In this document: in pieces, positions 6,008-15,409 of the stretch | How positions within the stretch are numbered: the first letter of the stretch is position 1 | Layout of the letters: the number at the start of each line of letters is the position of its first letter | NCBI GenBank assembly: GCA_021802055.1 | Contig: JAKAAY010000006.1 | Coordinates: 1 to 35,239, forward strand | Direction of reading: 5' to 3' | Origin: Thermoplasmata archaeon | GTDB lineage: Archaea; Thermoplasmatota; Thermoplasmata; Thermoplasmatales; Thermoplasmataceae | DNA: 35,239 nucleotides | Translations under genes and position numbers: made by a program | Notes under the pieces: generated by a model | Databases searched by the model: none | Told to the model about the DNA's origin: nothing | The model's input: only the letters and a program-made list of their open reading frames with translations

Positions 6008-6084
6008 AACCCGATGGGGGAATTTCCCATATTAAGGCGTGTGGGTAAACGTTACCTGAACTGGGTTAGAGTAAGGCAATCACT

Positions 6085-6120
6085 TTTAAATAAACAAGGT
6101 TAATTAGCCTTCGGTGAACT
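6085..6120 (+). promoter_or_regulatory. ATPase operon promoter and strong ribosome binding site
   Basis: TTTAAATA (6085-6092) is a clear TATA box. A start site about 26 nt downstream would leave a leader of roughly 10 nt that just contains GGTGAACT (6113-6120), a good match to the archaeal 16S 3' end, four nt before the TTG start of atpK. The same GGTGAACT precedes the TTG start of rpsL. Confidence 0.6.
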
Positions 6121-6124
6121 TTCA

Positions 6125-6343
6125 TTGGCAGATCCACAATTAGCGCTGGCAGCTGCGATTGCTATTGCAGGAGGTCTCATAGGTACAGGCATGGCCCAGC
6201 AGGGAATCGGAGCAGCCGGTATGGGTATTATCGCAGAAAAGCCCGAGAAATTTGGACAGGTTCTGGTGTTCTTCGTTATTCCGGAGACGCTGTGGATCAT
6301 AGGTCTGGTATTGGGATTAATCCTGTTGCTGAATATCCTCTAG
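6125..6343 (+). CDS. atpK: A-type ATPase subunit K (proteolipid c-ring)
   Basis: The 72-residue product is a single hairpin of two membrane helices with the Gly/Ala-rich first helix typical of c subunits and a short polar loop (AEKPEKFG). The second helix carries the ion-binding glutamate Glu54 in the sequence IPET. Each copy contributes one hairpin to the membrane ring that turns as ions pass. Thr55 next to the glutamate is a side chain seen in some Na+-binding rings, but ion choice cannot be decided here. The start is TTG, supported by GGTGAACT four nt upstream and by protein length. It is the first gene of the operon. Confidence 0.93.
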   Translation: MADPQLALAAAIAIAGGLIGTGMAQQGIGAAGMGIIAEKPEKFGQVLVFFVIPETLWIIGLVLGLILLLNIL

Positions 6344-6349
6344 GTTAAA

Positions 6350-6919
6350 ATGTCCCTGGAAAGCATAATCTCCGAGATAGACGAGAAGAAGAAGGCCCAG
6401 ATCAACTCGATCCAGAAGGAGATTGATGAACTTGTCGAGTCGCGTTCCCAGCAGTTGAAAAAGGAAACGGACTCTCTTGCAGAGGCGTTCAGTTCCAGGA
6501 AAGTTGCATACGCGAACTCCGTCGAGAGGAGCAGGAGGGATCTGGCAGTCCTGGAGGCTGCGAGAATTCTCACAGATGCAAGGAGCAAACTCATCGATGA
6601 TGCGACGTCTCTGGTATCGGAATATCTTTCGAACCTGAGAAAAAGGTCCGTGCACAGGAAGATACTGGAGATGTCCATCAGGCTGGTGGAGTTTCAGTTC
6701 CCGGAAGGTGCCACAGTTTTCGCTCCTGAACAGGACATCGAAGCCCTGAAAAAGTTCACGGCCGACACCAGGATCAAGTTTGAGAAGGGCGACATGCCAT
6801 ACGGCATCCTGGCGGCATCCAGTGACGGAAAGAGGGAGCTTGACCTCACCTTCACCCAGATATGGAAGGCAGCCAGGGACAACATAGCACTGGCACTGGA
6901 AGCAGGCATAGGTGAGTGA
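6350..6919 (+). CDS. atpE: A-type ATPase subunit E (peripheral stalk)
   Basis: The 189-residue product has a long charged N-terminal coiled coil (about residues 1-100, rich in Lys/Glu, such as EIDEKKKAQINSIQKEIDEL) and a C-terminal alpha/beta head (about 105-189), matching archaeal subunit E. It pairs with subunit H to form the outer stalk that holds the catalytic head still. The ATG is six nt after the atpK stop and the gene ends four nt before atpC, so it belongs to the same transcript. Confidence 0.9.
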   Translation: MSLESIISEIDEKKKAQINSIQKEIDELVESRSQQLKKETDSLAEAFSSRKVAYANSVERSRRDLAVLEAARILTDARSKLIDDATSLVSEYLSNLRKRSVHRKILEMSIRLVEFQFPEGATVFAPEQDIEALKKFTADTRIKFEKGDMPYGILAASSDGKRELDLTFTQIWKAARDNIALALEAGIGE

Positions 6920-6922
6920 GCA

Positions 6923-7975
6923 ATGGACGGAACCTATGCTGGGAGCTATGGCAGGATCCGTTCCTATTATACTGATTTCCTGGACGATGCTTTCATGGCC
7001 TCTCTCGTTGGACGCAAGAATGACGAGATAGGACAGATGCTGCTCAAGACAAACTACAGGGAAGATCTGGAGGCTCTCTCATCAACCTACAGCGGAAGGG
7101 CACACCTGGAAAATGCCATCAACCGCCATTTCGTAAAAAAAAATAAGCTGGCGATATCATCTCCTCCACCCGGAGTCAAGGACTTCCTCAAGCTCTACGT
7201 TTCAAAGTGGGATATAGATAACATCAAGATACTTCTGGCTTCCAAGGAACTCGGTCACAAGATATCCCTGGATGACACCTTCATAGTCAACTCCCGGGGT
7301 ATACCAATGGGGGTCTTCGCCGGGAACATTTCACCAGAGGAATTCAGGGTTCTGCTTGGGCTGCCCAGCCTCGAGTCTTCCATTGATTATCTCTCCAGAC
7401 ACCCCGTGGGCGTTGCAATGGCATCAAGGCTTGATGAATACAGGCGCACGGCAGACCTGTCCTTTCTCTTCACGGCCATGGACACTTTCTATTTCTCGGA
7501 AGTACTGAGGACGCTGCTCTTCATAAGAGGCGACGAGTCTCCCGTAAGGAGCTATTTCAGGGATTATATTGATCTGAGAAATATCATGGTAATACTCAAG
7601 GCAAGAGACCAGGAAATGGATTTTGCCATAATCAAAGAGCGGCTGAGTCCTGGAGGTAGTATATCTCCCGCAGCGCTTGAAGACTTGTTCAGGAACTCAC
7701 CTGTCGCTGATATATATCAGTCCGCGGGTAAGGTCGCGGGTGGAGAATCAGAGCAGCATCCCGCAAATCTCTCCGATCTTGAGATCATGACAAGGATGCA
7801 TCTTTACAGGAGATACCACCCATCATTCATGGCCTCCTCCATCTCCGTTAACACCATATTCGACTTTGTGCTGACTGCTGAAAGGGAACGAGACATCCTG
7901 CGGGGGATAGTCATTGGAAGTTCCTATGGGATGAAAAACGATTCAGTTCTGAGACTCACTGGCATGGGGGTGTGA
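6923..7975 (+). CDS. atpC: A-type ATPase subunit C (central stalk socket)
   Basis: The 350-residue, largely alpha-helical soluble protein matches the length and pattern of archaeal subunit C / V-ATPase d. It has an early SYGRIRSYYTDFLDD and the recurring helices of the funnel (VSKWDIDNIKILLASKELG, YFRDYIDLRNIMVILKARD). It sits on the proteolipid ring and receives the D-F shaft. It lies between atpE and atpF; its TGA overlaps the atpF GTG by four nt, implying coupled translation. Confidence 0.9.
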   Translation: MDGTYAGSYGRIRSYYTDFLDDAFMASLVGRKNDEIGQMLLKTNYREDLEALSSTYSGRAHLENAINRHFVKKNKLAISSPPPGVKDFLKLYVSKWDIDNIKILLASKELGHKISLDDTFIVNSRGIPMGVFAGNISPEEFRVLLGLPSLESSIDYLSRHPVGVAMASRLDEYRRTADLSFLFTAMDTFYFSEVLRTLLFIRGDESPVRSYFRDYIDLRNIMVILKARDQEMDFAIIKERLSPGGSISPAALEDLFRNSPVADIYQSAGKVAGGESEQHPANLSDLEIMTRMHLYRRYHPSFMASSISVNTIFDFVLTAERERDILRGIVIGSSYGMKNDSVLRLTGMGV

Positions 7976-8295
7976 AGCTGGACAAGGGAAAATCCGTCGC
8001 AGCCATAGGGAAGAGGGAAGTAATCATGGGATTCAGGCTGATAGGGATCAGCACCTCCAGGGAGGCAGATGCCAGAGATGTGGATAGGGTTCTTTCCGGG
8101 ATGATAGCCGAGGGAAAGCATTCCATGATCATGGTGACGGAAGACCTCAGGTCTGGTATAAGCAGCAGGCTTCTGGAGAGAATTGAGACGATGAACGACC
8201 CGCTTGTGATCTTCGTACCCATGCCTGGTGGCACGGAAGAGGAGTCAGTCTCAAAACTGGCCAAGCGGATACTGGGAGTAGAGATAGGAGAGTAA
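7972..8295 (+). CDS. atpF: A-type ATPase subunit F
   Basis: The 107-residue soluble protein matches the small central-stalk subunit F, with the family core GFRLIGI, a middle region MIAEGKHSMIMVTEDL, and PLVIFVPMPGG near the C-terminus. It binds subunit D and modulates the shaft. The start is taken as GTG at 7972, overlapping the atpC stop (GTGA). The N-terminal ~15 residues are a little longer than the usual core, so an internal ATG just before GFRLIGI (8026) is an alternative. Confidence 0.88.
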   Translation: MKLDKGKSVAAIGKREVIMGFRLIGISTSREADARDVDRVLSGMIAEGKHSMIMVTEDLRSGISSRLLERIETMNDPLVIFVPMPGGTEEESVSKLAKRILGVEIGE

Positions 8296-8299
8296 GGGA

Positions 8300-10642
8300 A
8301 TGGGCAAAATAGTTAAGATTTCTGGGCCAGTTGTGGTTGCAGAAGGCGTAGAAGAAGCAAGGATGTATGACGTAGTGAGAGTGGGAGAACTTGGCCTGGT
8401 GGGTGAGATCATCAGGCTGGAGTCGGGGCGCTCCACAATCCAGGTTTATGAGGATACAAGCGGTCTGAGACCGGGTGACAAGATAGAGAACACACGCAGG
8501 CCACTCTCCGTGGAGCTTGGACCGGGCCTGCTGGCCTCCATCTATGATGGGATCCAGAGGCCGCTTGACGTCATACGGCAGAGCTCGGGGGACTTCATAA
8601 GAAGGGGATTTACGGCTTCCCCGCTGGATGAGACCAAGAAATGGCATTTCCATCCCAGCAAGAAGAAAGGTGATAAGGTGGTCGCCGGAGAAATCCTGGG
8701 TACAGTTCAGGAGACAAGCCTCATAGAGCACAAGATCATGGTACCTCTGACCATAGAGTCAGGAACCATAGAGTCGCTCAAGGACGGGGAATTTACTGTA
8801 TCGGAAGTGATCGGGACAATATCCGCAGGAGAAAAGAAAGTCGAGCTGAGGCTCAAGCAGACCTGGCCCGTGAGAAGCGCAAGAAGGGTGGCCAGAAAAC
8901 TGCCTCCCGTTGAACCTCTCATAACCGGCCAGAGAGTCATAGACACCTTTTTCCCTGTTGCAAAGGGTGGCACCGTGGCAGTGCCCGGACCATTCGGATC
9001 AGGCAAGTGTGTAACCGGAGAAACTGATATTCTTCTGGGAGACGGGACTCTGATCAGCATCCGGGAACTCTTTGAAAAACACTCAAAGGGGAGCACAGAC
9101 GCGGAGGAGTACGTGTTTCTTGATTCCCCAGTCCAGCTTTTCTCCATGTACGACGGACGGATCTCAAGGAGCGAGTCTTATGTGCTTTACAGAGGTAAAA
9201 GCGACTCCGTGTACCGGGTTAGAACGCAGGGAGGCAGGGAAGTCAGGGTAACGCCTGTTCACAAGCTTTTCAGACTCAACGATGATGGAGTTTTGTCAGA
9301 GACCATGGCCAGGAATCTCCGCACTGGAGATTTCATAGCATGTGCAGATATACCTGAAATAGTCGACTCCTTCCTGAATATGCCATCCCAACCCACTGAC
9401 AGTTCCGGATCATCTGCCCAGGCAATAGAGCTTGTCAGCCAGTACGGTAGAGAAGATGTTGCGCCGGTATTTGACATGATAGTGGCCCTGGAGGAAGAGG
9501 AGGGCCCATTCGACGTCTATGATCTTGCCGTTCCGGACTTCGGCCACAACTTCATAGGGGGTTCCGGGGGAATAGTTCTTCACAACACCGTGGTTCAGCA
9601 CCAGCTTTCCAAGTGGGCAGACAGCGACATAGTTGTGTATGTGGGGTGTGGGGAGAGAGGCAACGAAATGACAGAGATTCTCACAACATTCCCTGAGCTT
9701 CAGGACCCCAAGAGCGGAAAACCACTGATGGAGAGAACCGTCCTCATAGCGAACACATCCAACATGCCGGTTGCAGCAAGAGAAGCCTCAATCTATACGG
9801 GCATCACAATCGCAGAATACTACAGGGACATGGGATACGACATCGCCCTTATGGCCGACAGCACATCCAGATGGGCAGAAGCACTAAGGGAAATATCAGG
9901 CAGACTGGAAGAGATGCCCGGCGAGGAAGGTTATCCGGCTTATCTGGGACGGAGGCTTTCAGAATTCTATGAGAGATCGGGCAAGGCCGTGGTCCTTTCC
10001 AAAGAGCAGAGGGAGGGATCAATAACCATAGTGGGCGCGGTTTCCCCTCCCGGTGGAGACATATCGGAGCCCGTCTCACAGAACACCCTCAGGGTAACCA
10101 GGGTTTTCTGGGCTCTTGACGCCTCCCTGGCATCGAGGAGGCACTTCCCTTCAATAAACTGGCTCAACAGCTACTCCCTTTACAGGGAAGAGCTATTCAA
10201 GTGGTTCAACAGTAAGGTGTCTGAGGAGTGGAGTGGCGTCTATTCAGAGGCCATGGGCATACTCCAGAAGGAATCAGAATTGCAGGAGATCGTGCAGCTG
10301 GTTGGTTATGATGCGCTCCCTGAGAGGGAAAAGGGAATTCTTGACATTGCAAGGATGATAAGGGAGGACTTTCTCCAGCAGAGTGCCTTCGACGACGTGG
10401 ACACATATTGCTCCGTGAGGAAGCAGTTTCTCATGCTCAGCACCATCATAGAACTGGGCAGAGCGCAGTTCAAGGCCATAGAGAAAGGTTCCAGAATGGA
10501 TCAGCTCAGGACCATCCCCGTGAGGGACAGGATATCCAGGATGAAGGAGATCAAGGAAAGCGCAATAGAAACTGCATTCCCACCGATGCTGGAAGAAATC
10601 AGGGGGCAGGTTAAGTCCCTGGAGGCGGAGGTGACAGGATGA
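8300..10642 (+). CDS. atpA: A-type ATPase catalytic subunit A, interrupted by an intein
   Basis: The 780-residue precursor becomes a host protein of about 587 residues, normal for the family, after removal of a 193-residue intein. Extein features are the N-terminal beta barrel ([15 protein letters not shown]), the archaeal non-homologous insert (residues about 110-200), and the P-loop GPFGSGK followed after the intein by [10 protein letters not shown]. Further downstream come CGERGNEM, with the catalytic Glu, and the Walker B region [19 protein letters not shown]. It hydrolyses or makes ATP at the A/B interfaces. Because the intein sits inside the P-loop, the subunit cannot bind nucleotide until splicing occurs. 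The ATG follows atpF by four nt; its TGA overlaps the atpB ATG. Confidence 0.96.
9008..9586 (+). other. Mini-intein in the AtpA P-loop (VMA-type)
   Basis: Residues 237-429 of the AtpA precursor form a 193-residue intein. It opens with Cys1 ([13 protein letters not shown], block A), has block [15 protein letters not shown] with Thr82 and His85, block [14 protein letters not shown], and ends GGIVLHN with the terminal His-Asn. The next extein residue is Thr, the +1 nucleophile. About 80 residues separate blocks B and F, with no LAGLIDADG motif, so it lacks a homing endonuclease and cannot move by itself. All splicing residues look intact. The insertion point between Lys and Thr of GSGKT is the one I recall for Thermoplasma VMA inteins, which are of similar size. 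Confidence 0.95.
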
Positions 10643-12021
10643 TTACGCCGAGTTACAAGTCAATATCACAGATAAGCGGTCCCCTTCTGTTTGTGGAGGG
10701 TGTTCCAAACGCAGCATACAACGAGATCGTGGAGATAACAACACCTGACGGTGAATCCAGGTCTGGCCAGGTTCTGGAGAGCAGAAACGGGCTTGCCATA
10801 GTGCAGGTCTTCGGTTCCACGTCCGGACTGGACAACAACAGGACCAAGGTCAGGTTCACAGGCAGCATTGCCCGCATATCCATATCGGATGAAATGCTGG
10901 GACGCGTTTTCAACGGATTGGGTGCCCCCATTGACTCCGGTCCTGCCATCCTCAGCAAGGAAAAGTTTGAGATTGTGGGTAATGCAATCAATCCCTACTC
11001 CCGGGAAGAGCCATCTGAGTTCATCCAGACGGGGATATCCACAATCGATGGTATGAACACGCTCGTCAGGGGGCAGAAGCTCCCCATCTTTTCCGGTTCC
11101 GGACTGCCTCACAACCAGCTCGCGGCACAGATCGCAAGGCAGGCCAAGGTCAGGGGCACGGACGAGAATTTCGCGGTCATCTTCGGGGCCATGGGTATAA
11201 CCAGTGAGGAGGCCAACTACTTCATCAACGAATTCAGGAGCACAGGCGCAATCTCCAGATCCGTGATGTTCCTTAACCTGTCCTCGGACCCGTCCATGGA
11301 GCGCATAATCCTGCCAAGGACAGCCCTCACCACGGCAGAGTACCTTGCATACGAGAAGAACATGCACATACTGGTGATCCTGTCCGACATGACAAATTAC
11401 TGCGAGGCCTTGAGGGAAGTTTCGTCCGCAAGGGAGGAAGTCCCGGGAAGGAGAGGTTTTCCAGGCTACATGTACACCGATCTGAGCACCATTTACGAAA
11501 GGGCAGGAAAGATCAAGGGACGATCGGGATCAATCACACAGATACCTATCCTTACCATGCCAGGCGACGACCTTACAAACCCCATACCCGATCTGACCGG
11601 CTACATTACCGAGGGGCAGATTGTCATGAGCAGAGACCTCCAGAGAAGCGGCATATATCCGCCCATCAATGTCCTGCCGTCACTCTCAAGGCTGATGAAC
11701 CAGGGGATTGGAAAGGGCAGGACCAGGGACGATCACCGGGGCGTTGCAGACCAGCTTTACTCGGCCTACGCCAACGGGAAGGACCTGAGATCGCTCAGCG
11801 CCATCGTGGGCGAGGAGGCCCTTGGAGCAGCGGATCGCCAGTACCTCAGGTTTGCCGATGCATTTGAGGAAAGGTACGTGAAGCAGGGCTATAATGAAGA
11901 CAGGACCATAGAGCATACCCTGGATCTTGGATGGGAACTCATGTCCATGCTTCCGGAAGGGGACATGAAGAGAGTCAAGAAGGATCAGATAGAGAGATAC
12001 GGAAAATGGAAGAAGGAGTAG
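10639..12021 (+). CDS. atpB: A-type ATPase regulatory subunit B
   Basis: The 460-residue product has the three-part layout of archaeal subunit B: an N-terminal barrel ([16 protein letters not shown]), a RecA-like domain with the degenerate P-loop region [19 protein letters not shown] instead of Walker A, and a C-terminal helical part with [13 protein letters not shown]. It alternates with subunit A in the head hexamer and supplies residues, including Arg, to the catalytic interface, but does not turn over ATP itself. The ATG overlaps the atpA TGA (ATGA), and the TAG is one nt before the atpD start. Confidence 0.95.
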
Positions 12022-12022
12022 A

Positions 12023-12661
12023 ATGCCGGCTAGAGACGTGAGGCCAACGAGGATCGAACTGATCAACACCAACAGGAGGATTAAGCTTGCAGCCCGCGGC
12101 CTGGACCTGCTCAAAATGAAGCGATCCGCCCTGGTCATGGAGTTCTTCAAGATCAGCAGGGAGGTCAGAGGGCTCAGGGAAAATCTCAGGGCCACCATTG
12201 GCGAGGGCATTGAACTTGTGAGGATATCGGAGATACTTTACGGCGACATGATCATTGAAAGGCTGGCAGGATTCTCCTCCGAGGAGTCCTCGGCTGTTAA
12301 GACCAGGAACATCATGGGCGTCAGGATACCGGAGGTTCGGGTCCAAATGGGGGAATCCCTTGCATCCGACCTCTACAGGGCTGTCTCCCTTCCGCCGACG
12401 CTATACGATGCAATGAAGAAATTCAACCAGATATTCTCGAGCCTGACGGAAGTAGCGGAAAAGGAGAGCTCAATGAGGCGCCTTCTCCATGAGATTGACC
12501 GTACCAAGAGACGGTCCAATGCCATAGAGAACATTCTGATTCCGGAACTCAAATCAGAGGCAAAGTACATAAGAATGCGCCTCGATGAGATGGAAAGGGA
12601 CACGTTCTCCACTCTGAAGACCATAAAGAAGAAGATAGTGGCCAAGGGGGAAGGCATATGA
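12023..12661 (+). CDS. atpD: A-type ATPase subunit D (central shaft)
   Basis: The 212-residue product has the antiparallel coiled-coil signature of subunit D. The first helix has the family motif IKLAARGLDLLKMKRSALVMEF and the long C-terminal helix ends near KKIVAKGEGI. The shaft turns inside the A3B3 head. The ATG sits just after an AAGGAG (12013-12018) inside the end of atpB. Its stop codon overlaps the ATG of the next, unannotated small gene by four nt. Confidence 0.92.
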   Translation: MPARDVRPTRIELINTNRRIKLAARGLDLLKMKRSALVMEFFKISREVRGLRENLRATIGEGIELVRISEILYGDMIIERLAGFSSEESSAVKTRNIMGVRIPEVRVQMGESLASDLYRAVSLPPTLYDAMKKFNQIFSSLTEVAEKESSMRRLLHEIDRTKRRSNAIENILIPELKSEAKYIRMRLDEMERDTFSTLKTIKKKIVAKGEGI

Positions 12662-12828
12662 ATCCCATGTTCTACACCAACCCTGGAAAGGAGCGCAGAA
12701 CGATCTCCGTCACCCCCGAAGGGGAAAAAGCGCTGAAGAAATTTATGCGGGTCAGGAAAATAATGGCTGCGGTGAATGTCGGGGTGTCTGCAGCGATACT
12801 ATATGCCGCATTCATGGGGATGATCTGA
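12658..12828 (+). CDS. 56-residue single-membrane-segment protein within the ATPase operon, unrecognised
   Basis: This small frame runs ATG 12658 to TGA 12826-12828. Its ATG overlaps the atpD stop by four nt (ATGA) and its TGA overlaps the atpH ATG by one nt, so it fills the space between the two subunits exactly and is presumably translated by coupling. The first 34 residues are polar and basic (for example NPGKERRTISVTPEGEKALK, then FMRVRKIM), and the last ~20 form one hydrophobic helix (VNVGVSAAILYAAFMGMI). The layout suggests a small tail-anchored membrane protein, basic side in the cytoplasm. It is not one of the nine standard archaeal subunits. An accessory or assembly factor of the membrane sector is my inference, by analogy only with the small membrane subunits of eukaryotic V-ATPases. 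Confidence 0.75.
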   Translation: MNPMFYTNPGKERRTISVTPEGEKALKKFMRVRKIMAAVNVGVSAAILYAAFMGMI

Positions 12829-13166
12829 TGGAGGATATTGAGGTCATAAAGAAAATCAAGGAGGCTGAAGACGCTTCCGTCTCAGAACTTGAAAGGATGC
12901 GCAGGCTCTACAGCGAAAAGGTCGCCGAACTCACTGCTGCCCACGATAGCGCCATCAGGGAGCAGAAGGAAAGACTGGAGAAGGAATATTCAGAATTTGT
13001 TGAGATTGAAAACGCCAAGGTAGAGGAGAAAGTGAGGGGGATACTGGCCGAGGCCCGCAAGAGAGCTGCGACGCTCAAGTTGAATTTCACCAGGGATCAG
13101 ATAATGGAGATCTTTGACAGGGAGATCCAGAAGGTGCTGGAGGAGAGCAATGGCCCTAAGGCCTGA
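12828..13166 (+). CDS. atpH: A-type ATPase subunit H (peripheral stalk)
   Basis: The 112-residue product is almost entirely a charged coiled coil (VIKKIKEAEDASVSELERMR, then EKERLEKEYSEF-type heptads), as in archaeal subunit H/AhaH, the E partner in the outer stalk. Its ATG overlaps the stop of the 56-residue gene and its 3' end overlaps the atpI start by 17 nt. In many archaea H and I open the operon; here they close it. Confidence 0.85.
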   Translation: MEDIEVIKKIKEAEDASVSELERMRRLYSEKVAELTAAHDSAIREQKERLEKEYSEFVEIENAKVEEKVRGILAEARKRAATLKLNFTRDQIMEIFDREIQKVLEESNGPKA

Positions 13167-15090
13167 ACGAATGCTGAGGATTCGCATAATAAGCACCCTT
13201 TCAAACAGAGATCCAGTGATTTCTCTGCTCCATGATGCCAACGCAGTACAGGTGGAGCAGATCTCCGGCGATATCCGGGAATCACTGGGACGGCAGCCAC
13301 AGCAGGACTTACAGGCCAGAACTTCGGAACAGCTCCAGAGAATAAAGGGCATAGAGACTGCATTAACGCCCGTTGAAGTCTCCGGGGCAAAATTCTTCCC
13401 TTCCACAGAGGAGACCATCAGGGAAGCTGAAAAGATTGACATAGACAAGCAGGTGTGGGCGCTTAAGAACAGGGAGCAGGACCTCACTGCCGACCTGAAG
13501 GACATAGAGGTGAGGGAATCAACGATCTCATACATCAAGGGAATGGACGTTGACCTGGGGATTTTCACGACCCATCGCCTCAAGAGCTACGTCATCCCGT
13601 CGCCGGAACCTGGAGAACTGTCAGCAGAGATAAAGAAATCATTGCCGGAAGCCTCCACGATCCTTCTCAGCGAAGGACTCCTGGTAACTGTGCGCAGGGA
13701 ACATGACTCGGATCTTGCCAAGATAGCCTCGGCAAACGGTCTCACCATGAGAATAATCCCGGATGTACAGGGAAGTCCGGTCCAATACCTGGAAAAGCTG
13801 GCCTCCGTGAAGAATGAGCGTATGGCGGAACTGCGGGAAGTCCAGGCAGAGATCAGAGAGCTGTCTGGCCATTACTATTCACGCATCGTCCAGGTGCGGG
13901 AGCAGCTTGAAATAGAGCAGAGCAAGTTCGAGGCTGCGGAGAAAGGGGGATACACGGAGCAGACCTTCACGCTTGAAGGCTGGATACCGGAGTCCAGAGT
14001 CAAATCATTGCAGTCTGCACTGGAGAAGAACACGCAGGGGCGGGTTGTCATCAGTTATCCCAGGTTTACCGAGGAGCCTCCGACCCTTCTGAGAAATCCC
14101 AGGAGGATAAGGTTCTTTGAGTTTTTCATCAGGTTCTACTCACTTCCCCAGGAATCAGAGTACGATCCCACCCTGATTTTCGCCATGGTGTTTCCTCTGT
14201 TCTTCGGTATGATGGTAGGGGACATTGGATACGGGATCGTGATCCTGCTTGGTGCCATCCTGATCCTCATGAAGCTCAGCGGCAGGGCCAAGCGTTTCCC
14301 GCTGCCCAGGAAGCTTTCGCGGTTCGCCGTGGTCATTCTGGGAAGAGGCCCCCTGAAGACACTGGCCAGGGCCCTGATCCCTTCTGCGATCTCCGCCATT
14401 GTGTTTGGAATCATATTCAACCAGTTCTTCGGATTCAAGATACTCCCCTTCACACTGTTCGACGTGACCTCCTCTCTTCCCACCCTTCTGCTGTTATCGG
14501 GATACATCGGCCTTTTCATGGTGACGCTGGGACTCGCCATGGGATTCACCAACGAATACCTTGGGGGACACAGAAAGAGGGCATTCGGAAAGGCGGGGTG
14601 GATCCTTTTCATCTGGGGGGTTGCCATTGCAGGGCTCGACCTGCTTCACAGAACATTCGGTTCAACGGGGAGCTATGAAGCCATTGTAGTTGCCATGGCA
14701 GGCATAGGCGTGATAGTGGCTACCGAAGGTGCAATGGGGGCAATGGAGCTGCCGTCAATCATCAGCCACGTGCTTTCCTACACCAGGATCATAGGCATAC
14801 TGCTGGCCTCAGTCATACTCGCCTACGTCGTAGATTTCATATTTCTTGAGTACCTCCACACCTTCCCCATGGTGATTTTCGCAGCAATCATCCTTGTGCT
14901 GGGGCAGATATTCAACCTGTCCATTGCCATATTTGAACCGGGTATCCAGGGGGCGAGGCTGATCTATGTGGAATTCTTCTCAAAGTTCTACCATGGCAAC
15001 GGAAAGCCATTCAGACCCTTTGGAAGGAACCGCAGGTACACCATAAGACAGTATGATGCAGAGGCCGTGGAATCCGCGAAGCAAATCTAA
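13150..15090 (+). CDS. atpI: A-type ATPase subunit I (membrane a-type subunit)
   Basis: The 646-residue product matches archaeal subunit I: a cytoplasmic N-terminal half with coiled coils (about residues 1-330) and a C-terminal half with seven or eight membrane helices starting around FAMVFPLFFGMMVGDIGYG. The essential arginine facing the c-ring is Arg546 in SYTRIIGILLASV. Together with the K ring it forms the ion path. The frame is open to 13114, but ATG 13150 gives MALRPERMLRIRI, the usual family N-terminus, and overlaps atpH by 17 nt. It is the last gene of the operon. Confidence 0.94.
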   Translation: MALRPERMLRIRIISTLSNRDPVISLLHDANAVQVEQISGDIRESLGRQPQQDLQARTSEQLQRIKGIETALTPVEVSGAKFFPSTEETIREAEKIDIDKQVWALKNREQDLTADLKDIEVRESTISYIKGMDVDLGIFTTHRLKSYVIPSPEPGELSAEIKKSLPEASTILLSEGLLVTVRREHDSDLAKIASANGLTMRIIPDVQGSPVQYLEKLASVKNERMAELREVQAEIRELSGHYYSRIVQVREQLEIEQSKFEAAEKGGYTEQTFTLEGWIPESRVKSLQSALEKNTQGRVVISYPRFTEEPPTLLRNPRRIRFFEFFIRFYSLPQESEYDPTLIFAMVFPLFFGMMVGDIGYGIVILLGAILILMKLSGRAKRFPLPRKLSRFAVVILGRGPLKTLARALIPSAISAIVFGIIFNQFFGFKILPFTLFDVTSSLPTLLLLSGYIGLFMVTLGLAMGFTNEYLGGHRKRAFGKAGWILFIWGVAIAGLDLLHRTFGSTGSYEAIVVAMAGIGVIVATEGAMGAMELPSIISHVLSYTRIIGILLASVILAYVVDFIFLEYLHTFPMVIFAAIILVLGQIFNLSIAIFEPGIQGARLIYVEFFSKFYHGNGKPFRPFGRNRRYTIRQYDAEAVESAKQI

Positions 15091-15115: not shown

Positions 15116-15409
15116 GTGTCTTTACTTTACGTACTAACAATTGTGACGGATACTGCTGTGAGCCTCTTCGTCGGGGGATGGCTGGGGAGATTCCTTACCA
15201 GGTACCCATTTGGCCAGCGGGCCTTCACAGGCAAGGAATCACTCATAGGCAGGAAAGCCACGGTTGTTACCGTCAAGCCCGGTTTCTATGAAGTCAGACT
15301 GGACTCTCAGATATGGAAGGCCGTATGCGACGATCCTCTTGGCATCAACGAGGCAGCAGAAGTCTCGGACTTGAGCGGGAACAAGCTTACCCTCAGGAAG
15401 ATCCGTTGA
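15116..15409 (+). CDS. Short NfeD-like membrane protein
   Basis: The 97-residue product has one hydrophobic N-terminal segment (about residues 2-26, LLYVLTIVTDTAVSLFVGGW) followed by a small OB-fold-like domain (from GKESLIGRKATVVTV through WKAVCDDPLGINEAAEV to LTLRKI), the pattern of NfeD C-terminal domains. NfeD proteins usually work with a stomatin/SPFH partner in membrane quality control; no such partner is adjacent here. It is a short form without the ClpP-like protease domain. The start is GTG, chosen from the TATA spacing. Confidence 0.72.
   Translation: MSLLYVLTIVTDTAVSLFVGGWLGRFLTRYPFGQRAFTGKESLIGRKATVVTVKPGFYEVRLDSQIWKAVCDDPLGINEAAEVSDLSGNKLTLRKIR

Follow-up and report, generated by a model that had tools for sequence, protein, structure and literature searches.

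The window analysed here is a stretch of 35,239 nucleotides (contig JAKAAY010000006.1, Thermoplasmata archaeon). Its forward strand carries an A-type ATPase operon in the order K-E-C-F-A-B-D-orf56-H-I, in which orf56 is a small frame between the genes of subunits D and H. The nine standard archaeal subunits, which the original prediction had placed elsewhere in the operon, were all identified (K at 6125, E at 6350, C at 6923, F at 7972, A at 8300, B at 10639, D at 12023, H at 12828, and I at 13150). The features of the locus are as follows:

6125–12021, plus strand: atpK, atpE, atpC, atpF, atpA (with intein) and atpB, the remaining operon genes
12023–12661, plus strand: atpD, rotor shaft subunit D (PF01813, E 1e-49; NF001545, over cut-off)
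12658–12661, plus strand: 4-nt ATGA stop/start overlap of atpD and orf56 (sequence)
12658–12828, plus strand: orf56, a proposed divergent AhaG, 56-aa basic single-helix membrane protein (sequence, profiles, AlphaFold2)
12715–12813, plus strand: predicted helix codons (residues 20–52), including the membrane span near the C-terminus (AlphaFold2, charge analysis)
12742–12756, plus strand: codons of the conserved basic F-M-R-V-R stretch (residues 29–33; family alignment)
12828, plus strand: 1-nt TGATG overlap of the orf56 stop and the atpH start (sequence)
12828–13166, plus strand: atpH, peripheral stalk subunit H (PRK06397, E 1.8e-9, below cut-off)
13150–15090, plus strand: atpI, membrane subunit a/I (PF01496; PRK05771)

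The layout of the junction was confirmed from the sequence: the frame is complete, overlaps atpD by four nucleotides, and ends with a TGA whose final base (12828) is also the A of the atpH ATG. The start of the small gene also lies a few bases from the D stop in many relatives, and the ATGA overlap suggests that orf56 may be translationally coupled to atpD. The 3' end of atpD is the site where AhaG-type genes occur.

Several other observations were made in the operon. An A/T-rich, TATA-like stretch (tttaaataaa) just 5' of atpK, within positions 6080–6125, is probably the operon promoter, and the atpK start is likely TTG. The AtpA protein (8300–10642) carries an intein splicing domain at residues about 246–429 (PF14890, E 4e-16), inserted beside the P-loop (GPFGSGK|C...HN|T); the intein is short, so its homing endonuclease is probably missing. 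Directly after atpI, on the same strand, lies a gene (15116–15409) for a protein with an NfeD-like C-terminal domain (PF01957, E 2.8e-9) and an N-terminal hydrophobic stretch.

The translation of orf56 is MNPMFYTNPGKERRTISVTPEGEKALKKFMRVRKIMAAVNVGVSAAILYAAFMGMI, a protein of 56 residues with a mass of 6.24 kDa and a pI of 10.4. Its predicted tryptic peptides include MNPMFYTNPGK, TISVTPEGEK, and a hydrophobic peptide of 2.2 kDa from the C-terminus. The basic N-terminal part and the single C-terminal membrane helix that had been read from the letters were recovered in the closer analysis, with a net charge of +6 ahead of the helix and 0 behind it. AlphaFold2 modelled a single helix at residues 20–52, with a poorly ordered basic start; the model of AhaG has a long helix resembling it, and one helix dominates in both. 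In the alignment of the window family (f1), F29 shows no variation and N40 almost none. The N-terminal charge exceeds the C-terminal charge in 68/68 f1 proteins, and for this reason these proteins, including orf56, are predicted to have a single helix with the N-terminus inside and the C-terminus outside. No match over the curated cut-offs was obtained for orf56 in Pfam or NCBIfam, and the AhaG-type proteins likewise gave none over the Pfam cut-off. Searches of the PDB by sequence and by fold returned no matching chain or fold, although a single helix gives the fold search little power; none of the solved structures searched contains a relative.

The closest counterpart of orf56 was found in a genome of the same genus, G086 (71% identity; dN 0.19, dS 0.84), with weaker matches beyond. 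Subunit D was searched for in 117 genomes of the order, and the sequence that follows D was examined at 105 atpD loci. At 103 of these 105 loci, D was followed by a frame of about 30–60 residues with one strongly hydrophobic stretch, so that the search of the D-adjacent junction in relatives recovered a conserved frame. The single-contig genome G097 (1,564,906 bp) carries the small gene after D, as do 34 of the 40 class representatives. In a genome-wide profile search that took no account of location, strong matches adjoined D only; thus, the gene is present as a single copy and in the ATPase operon only.

It is scarcely credible that orf56 is a chance frame or an artefact of the opposite strand with no protein product. 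The frame is short and is overlapped by a hydrophobic antisense frame (12672–12815, minus strand), which would suit such a reading; however, 102 of the 104 testable D junctions hold a frame of this kind, against 3.8 expected from dinucleotide shuffles. The count of synonymous and non-synonymous changes also revealed constraint at the protein level, with a pooled pN/pS of 0.20 for the small gene and 0.08 for subunit D (36 independent pairs); in the same pairs, 618 of the 993 differences fell at third codon positions. When the reading frames were compared, pN/pS was 0.17 in the orf56 frame, 1.3–2.4 in four others, and 0.31 in the antisense frame, which shares third codon positions with orf56 and owes its low value to this. 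The antisense frame was rejected as a real gene: it is open at only 39/103 loci (the corresponding 103/103 for the orf56 frame holds by construction) and is a shadow of the orf56 codons. Thus, orf56 is a real, constrained small membrane-protein gene embedded in the operon; neither refuting condition set by the original prediction, lack of a conserved frame or of constraint on the protein, held.

The original prediction had regarded the protein as an addition to the nine known subunits. This was not borne out, since a tenth gene, ahaG, is already known at the same place in methanogens (PMC3087415; PMC4350412). The methanogen operon order, given in reverse as ahaGDBAFCEKIH, places ahaG after ahaD (PMC3087415). 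AhaG has been described as a protein of 6.3 kDa with two tryptic peptides above 900 Da and a doubtful role; it was not among the 8/10 ATPase subunits recovered in the M. mazei proteome (PMC4350412). A frame after D in one Methanosarcinales locus (L141) fits that description in both mass and number of such peptides. In an automatic screen of Methanosarcinales, at most 55/77 had a frame after D; this is an upper figure, as a few calls were spurious (e.g., L164, L167, L173, and L188). A location-blind AhaG search on the Methanosarcina side gave one match per genome in 89/246 genomes, and the best matches adjoined D in 8/8 cases. A recognisable AhaG also follows D in most other Thermoplasmata genomes. 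A survey of Methanomassiliicoccales names only H, I, K, E, C, F, A, B, and D (PMC4153887); unlike its gene table, loci of the Methanomassiliicoccales type (e.g., L240–L247) have a clear AhaG after D.

Profile comparisons divided the small proteins into two clusters. Cluster I comprises the AhaG of Methanosarcinales and of most Thermoplasmata, together with the Aciduliprofundum-like families f3 and f6, which matched the AhaG profile with a P of 6e-6 and 0/100 column shuffles as good; hydrophobic helices make such P values look better than they are, so that the shuffle counts deserve more trust. Cluster II comprises the window family f1 with f25, f5, f2, and f11. Within it, the window cluster matched f5 (P 1.7e-7, 0/100 controls as good) and f11 (P 2e-6, 0/200 controls), and the match with f2, whose frames are 30 residues long, was weak (P 6e-4, 0/100 controls).

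The link between the clusters was weaker. A direct comparison of the AhaG and f1 profiles showed no similarity (probability 0.6; 55/100 shuffles as good), and the AhaG profile did not find orf56 in the window gene's own genome. Run on whole genomes of the order, the same profile gave only noise for f1 and one true f3 locus. The strongest matches outside the operon, in G102 and G103, were frames of 90–93 residues beside a nuclease-like gene, had no ATPase link, and were rejected. With regard to the AhaG sequence pattern (P-E/D, R, W-x-I-S-L-x-M-L-x-L-G), the comparisons gave a weak bridge by way of f11 (P 0.0013, 3/200 controls as good) and a weak match of the merged clusters I and II over 35 gapless columns (P 1.4e-4, 2/200 controls); AhaG alone against merged cluster II gave a P of 3.8e-4 with 0/200 controls as good. 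The f11 bridge and the merged-profile links share a consistent register.

The gene order of the operon differs between these lineages. Subunit I lies downstream of D-x at 66/69 f1 loci (the remaining three are cut short), at all f2 and f5 loci, and in f25 and f11, but at no locus of f3, of f6, of the other Thermoplasmata, or of Methanosarcinales; atpH is likewise downstream of D-x in the clade of the window gene. On the tree of subunit D, the lineages with H-I downstream of D-x formed one clade (support 100/99), requiring one change, which indicates that H-I moved behind D-x once; the small gene stayed beside D. As a result of this move, the frame is found between D and H here. Cluster II was found only in this clade.

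The small gene is not retained everywhere in full. In some lineages it shrinks to 30–36 residues. In f11 genus g41 (loci L272 and L282) it is missing and atpH directly follows atpD; it is also missing at Methanoperedens loci such as L207, where the entire genome yielded no AhaG match. Locus L128 (genome G024, family f4) has a very divergent subunit D, with the longest branch of the tree (over 4 changes per column), and no small membrane frame after it; it may represent a different kind of ATPase or lie on a foreign contig.

Taken together, the results favour the interpretation, to which we assign a probability of about 0.6, that ahaG has its Thermoplasmatales counterpart in orf56, which encodes a useful yet dispensable accessory piece of the A0 sector that packs at subunit I or the K ring. 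Gene position and operon history carry most of the weight, with moderate support from sequence; size, position after D, single copy, and topology all agree with AhaG. Descent from AhaG as such is moderately supported. Against it stand the less basic N-terminus of AhaG (mean charge +0.9 versus +5.9 for f1) and the ease with which single hydrophobic helices converge. That the gene evolves faster than D, shrinks to about 33 residues, and is missing in some lineages argues for an accessory piece, its loss in some lineages indicates dispensability, and the whole suits a helpful, dispensable element of the membrane sector, either a small subunit or an assembly aid.

Two readings compete with a divergent AhaG. 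The small protein may act as an assembly factor that aids insertion or assembly of the K ring or subunit I in the manner of AtpI, AtpZ, or Vma21 and is absent from the finished enzyme. We regard this as somewhat unlikely, although it deserves attention: the faster evolution of the gene compared with D, its shrinkage, and its loss in Methanoperedens and the two f11 genomes are typical of an accessory and not of a core part, and the subunits recovered from M. mazei did not include AhaG (PMC4350412). The searches, however, linked the protein by sequence or fold to none of AtpI, AtpZ, and Vma21, and the tight tie to D carries no information on assembly as such. Furthermore, AtpI, AtpZ, and Vma21 have two or more helices each, whereas orf56 has one. 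It is improbable that cluster II is an unrelated newcomer, which appeared de novo or took the place of AhaG between D and H as H-I moved and acquired a lineage-specific role. The negative direct comparison of AhaG with f1 and the coincidence of the cluster change with the operon rearrangement would fit such an origin, but position, size, topology, and register agree with AhaG, the f11 and merged profiles give a weak link above the controls, and retention of a gene already present is more parsimonious.

If orf56 is a divergent AhaG, it would be made beside subunit D through translational coupling and would then insert in the membrane by its one C-terminal helix, leaving the basic N-terminal part in the cytoplasm. 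The helix may pack against subunit I or the K ring while the basic collar meets the stalk side, and the protein may thereby help in assembling the rotor-ring interface of the A0 sector or in holding it together. Membership of the complex and this mechanical role are inferred. A further-reaching version, which we consider doubtful, is that AhaG was remodelled at the base of the rearranged-operon clade into a basic single-helix tenth subunit, stable in the rotor-stator region of acidophile A-ATPases; if true, the protein would tune proton tightness or ring stability in acidophiles.

Subunit lists of the archaeal ATP synthase usually comprise nine proteins and treat AhaG as a doubtful addition in methanogens. 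A comparison from 2013 noted the absence of AhaG from archaea of acid mine drainage and from T. acidophilum and considered that it is perhaps unnecessary (PMC3750248). For T. acidophilum and its relatives, this absence is true of recognisable similarity but probably wrong about the gene, and the gene missed is probably of the orf56 type. In nearly all of these archaea, the position beside D holds a small gene whose protein is under selection and which stayed there through an operon rearrangement. A conserved tenth gene reopens the question of its task and supplies organisms and peptides for tests.

Subunits e/Vma9 and f and the Voa1/Ac45 helix of the eukaryotic V-ATPase resemble orf56 in working only, as additional small hydrophobic helices in the membrane sector; two helices are present in subunit e, and orf56 had no sequence or fold match among the small subunits of known structure of V- and F-ATPases. 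AtpI and AtpZ of the F-ATPase operon and Vma21 of the V-ATPase are likewise comparable in working only, as small membrane proteins that a rotary ATPase requires or whose genes accompany it, but they have more helices, a different gene position, and no Pfam or NCBIfam match with orf56. AhaG of Methanosarcina mazei and Methanothermobacter differs from orf56, which is much more basic and is followed by H-I; the window family has the motif F-x-R-I-R...N, AhaG has W-x-I-S-L-x-M-L-x-L-G, and pairwise profile similarity is undetectable. Nevertheless, AhaG is like orf56 in being encoded directly after the D gene as a single copy, in its mass of about 6.2–6.4 kDa, and in its one predicted membrane helix near the C-terminus.
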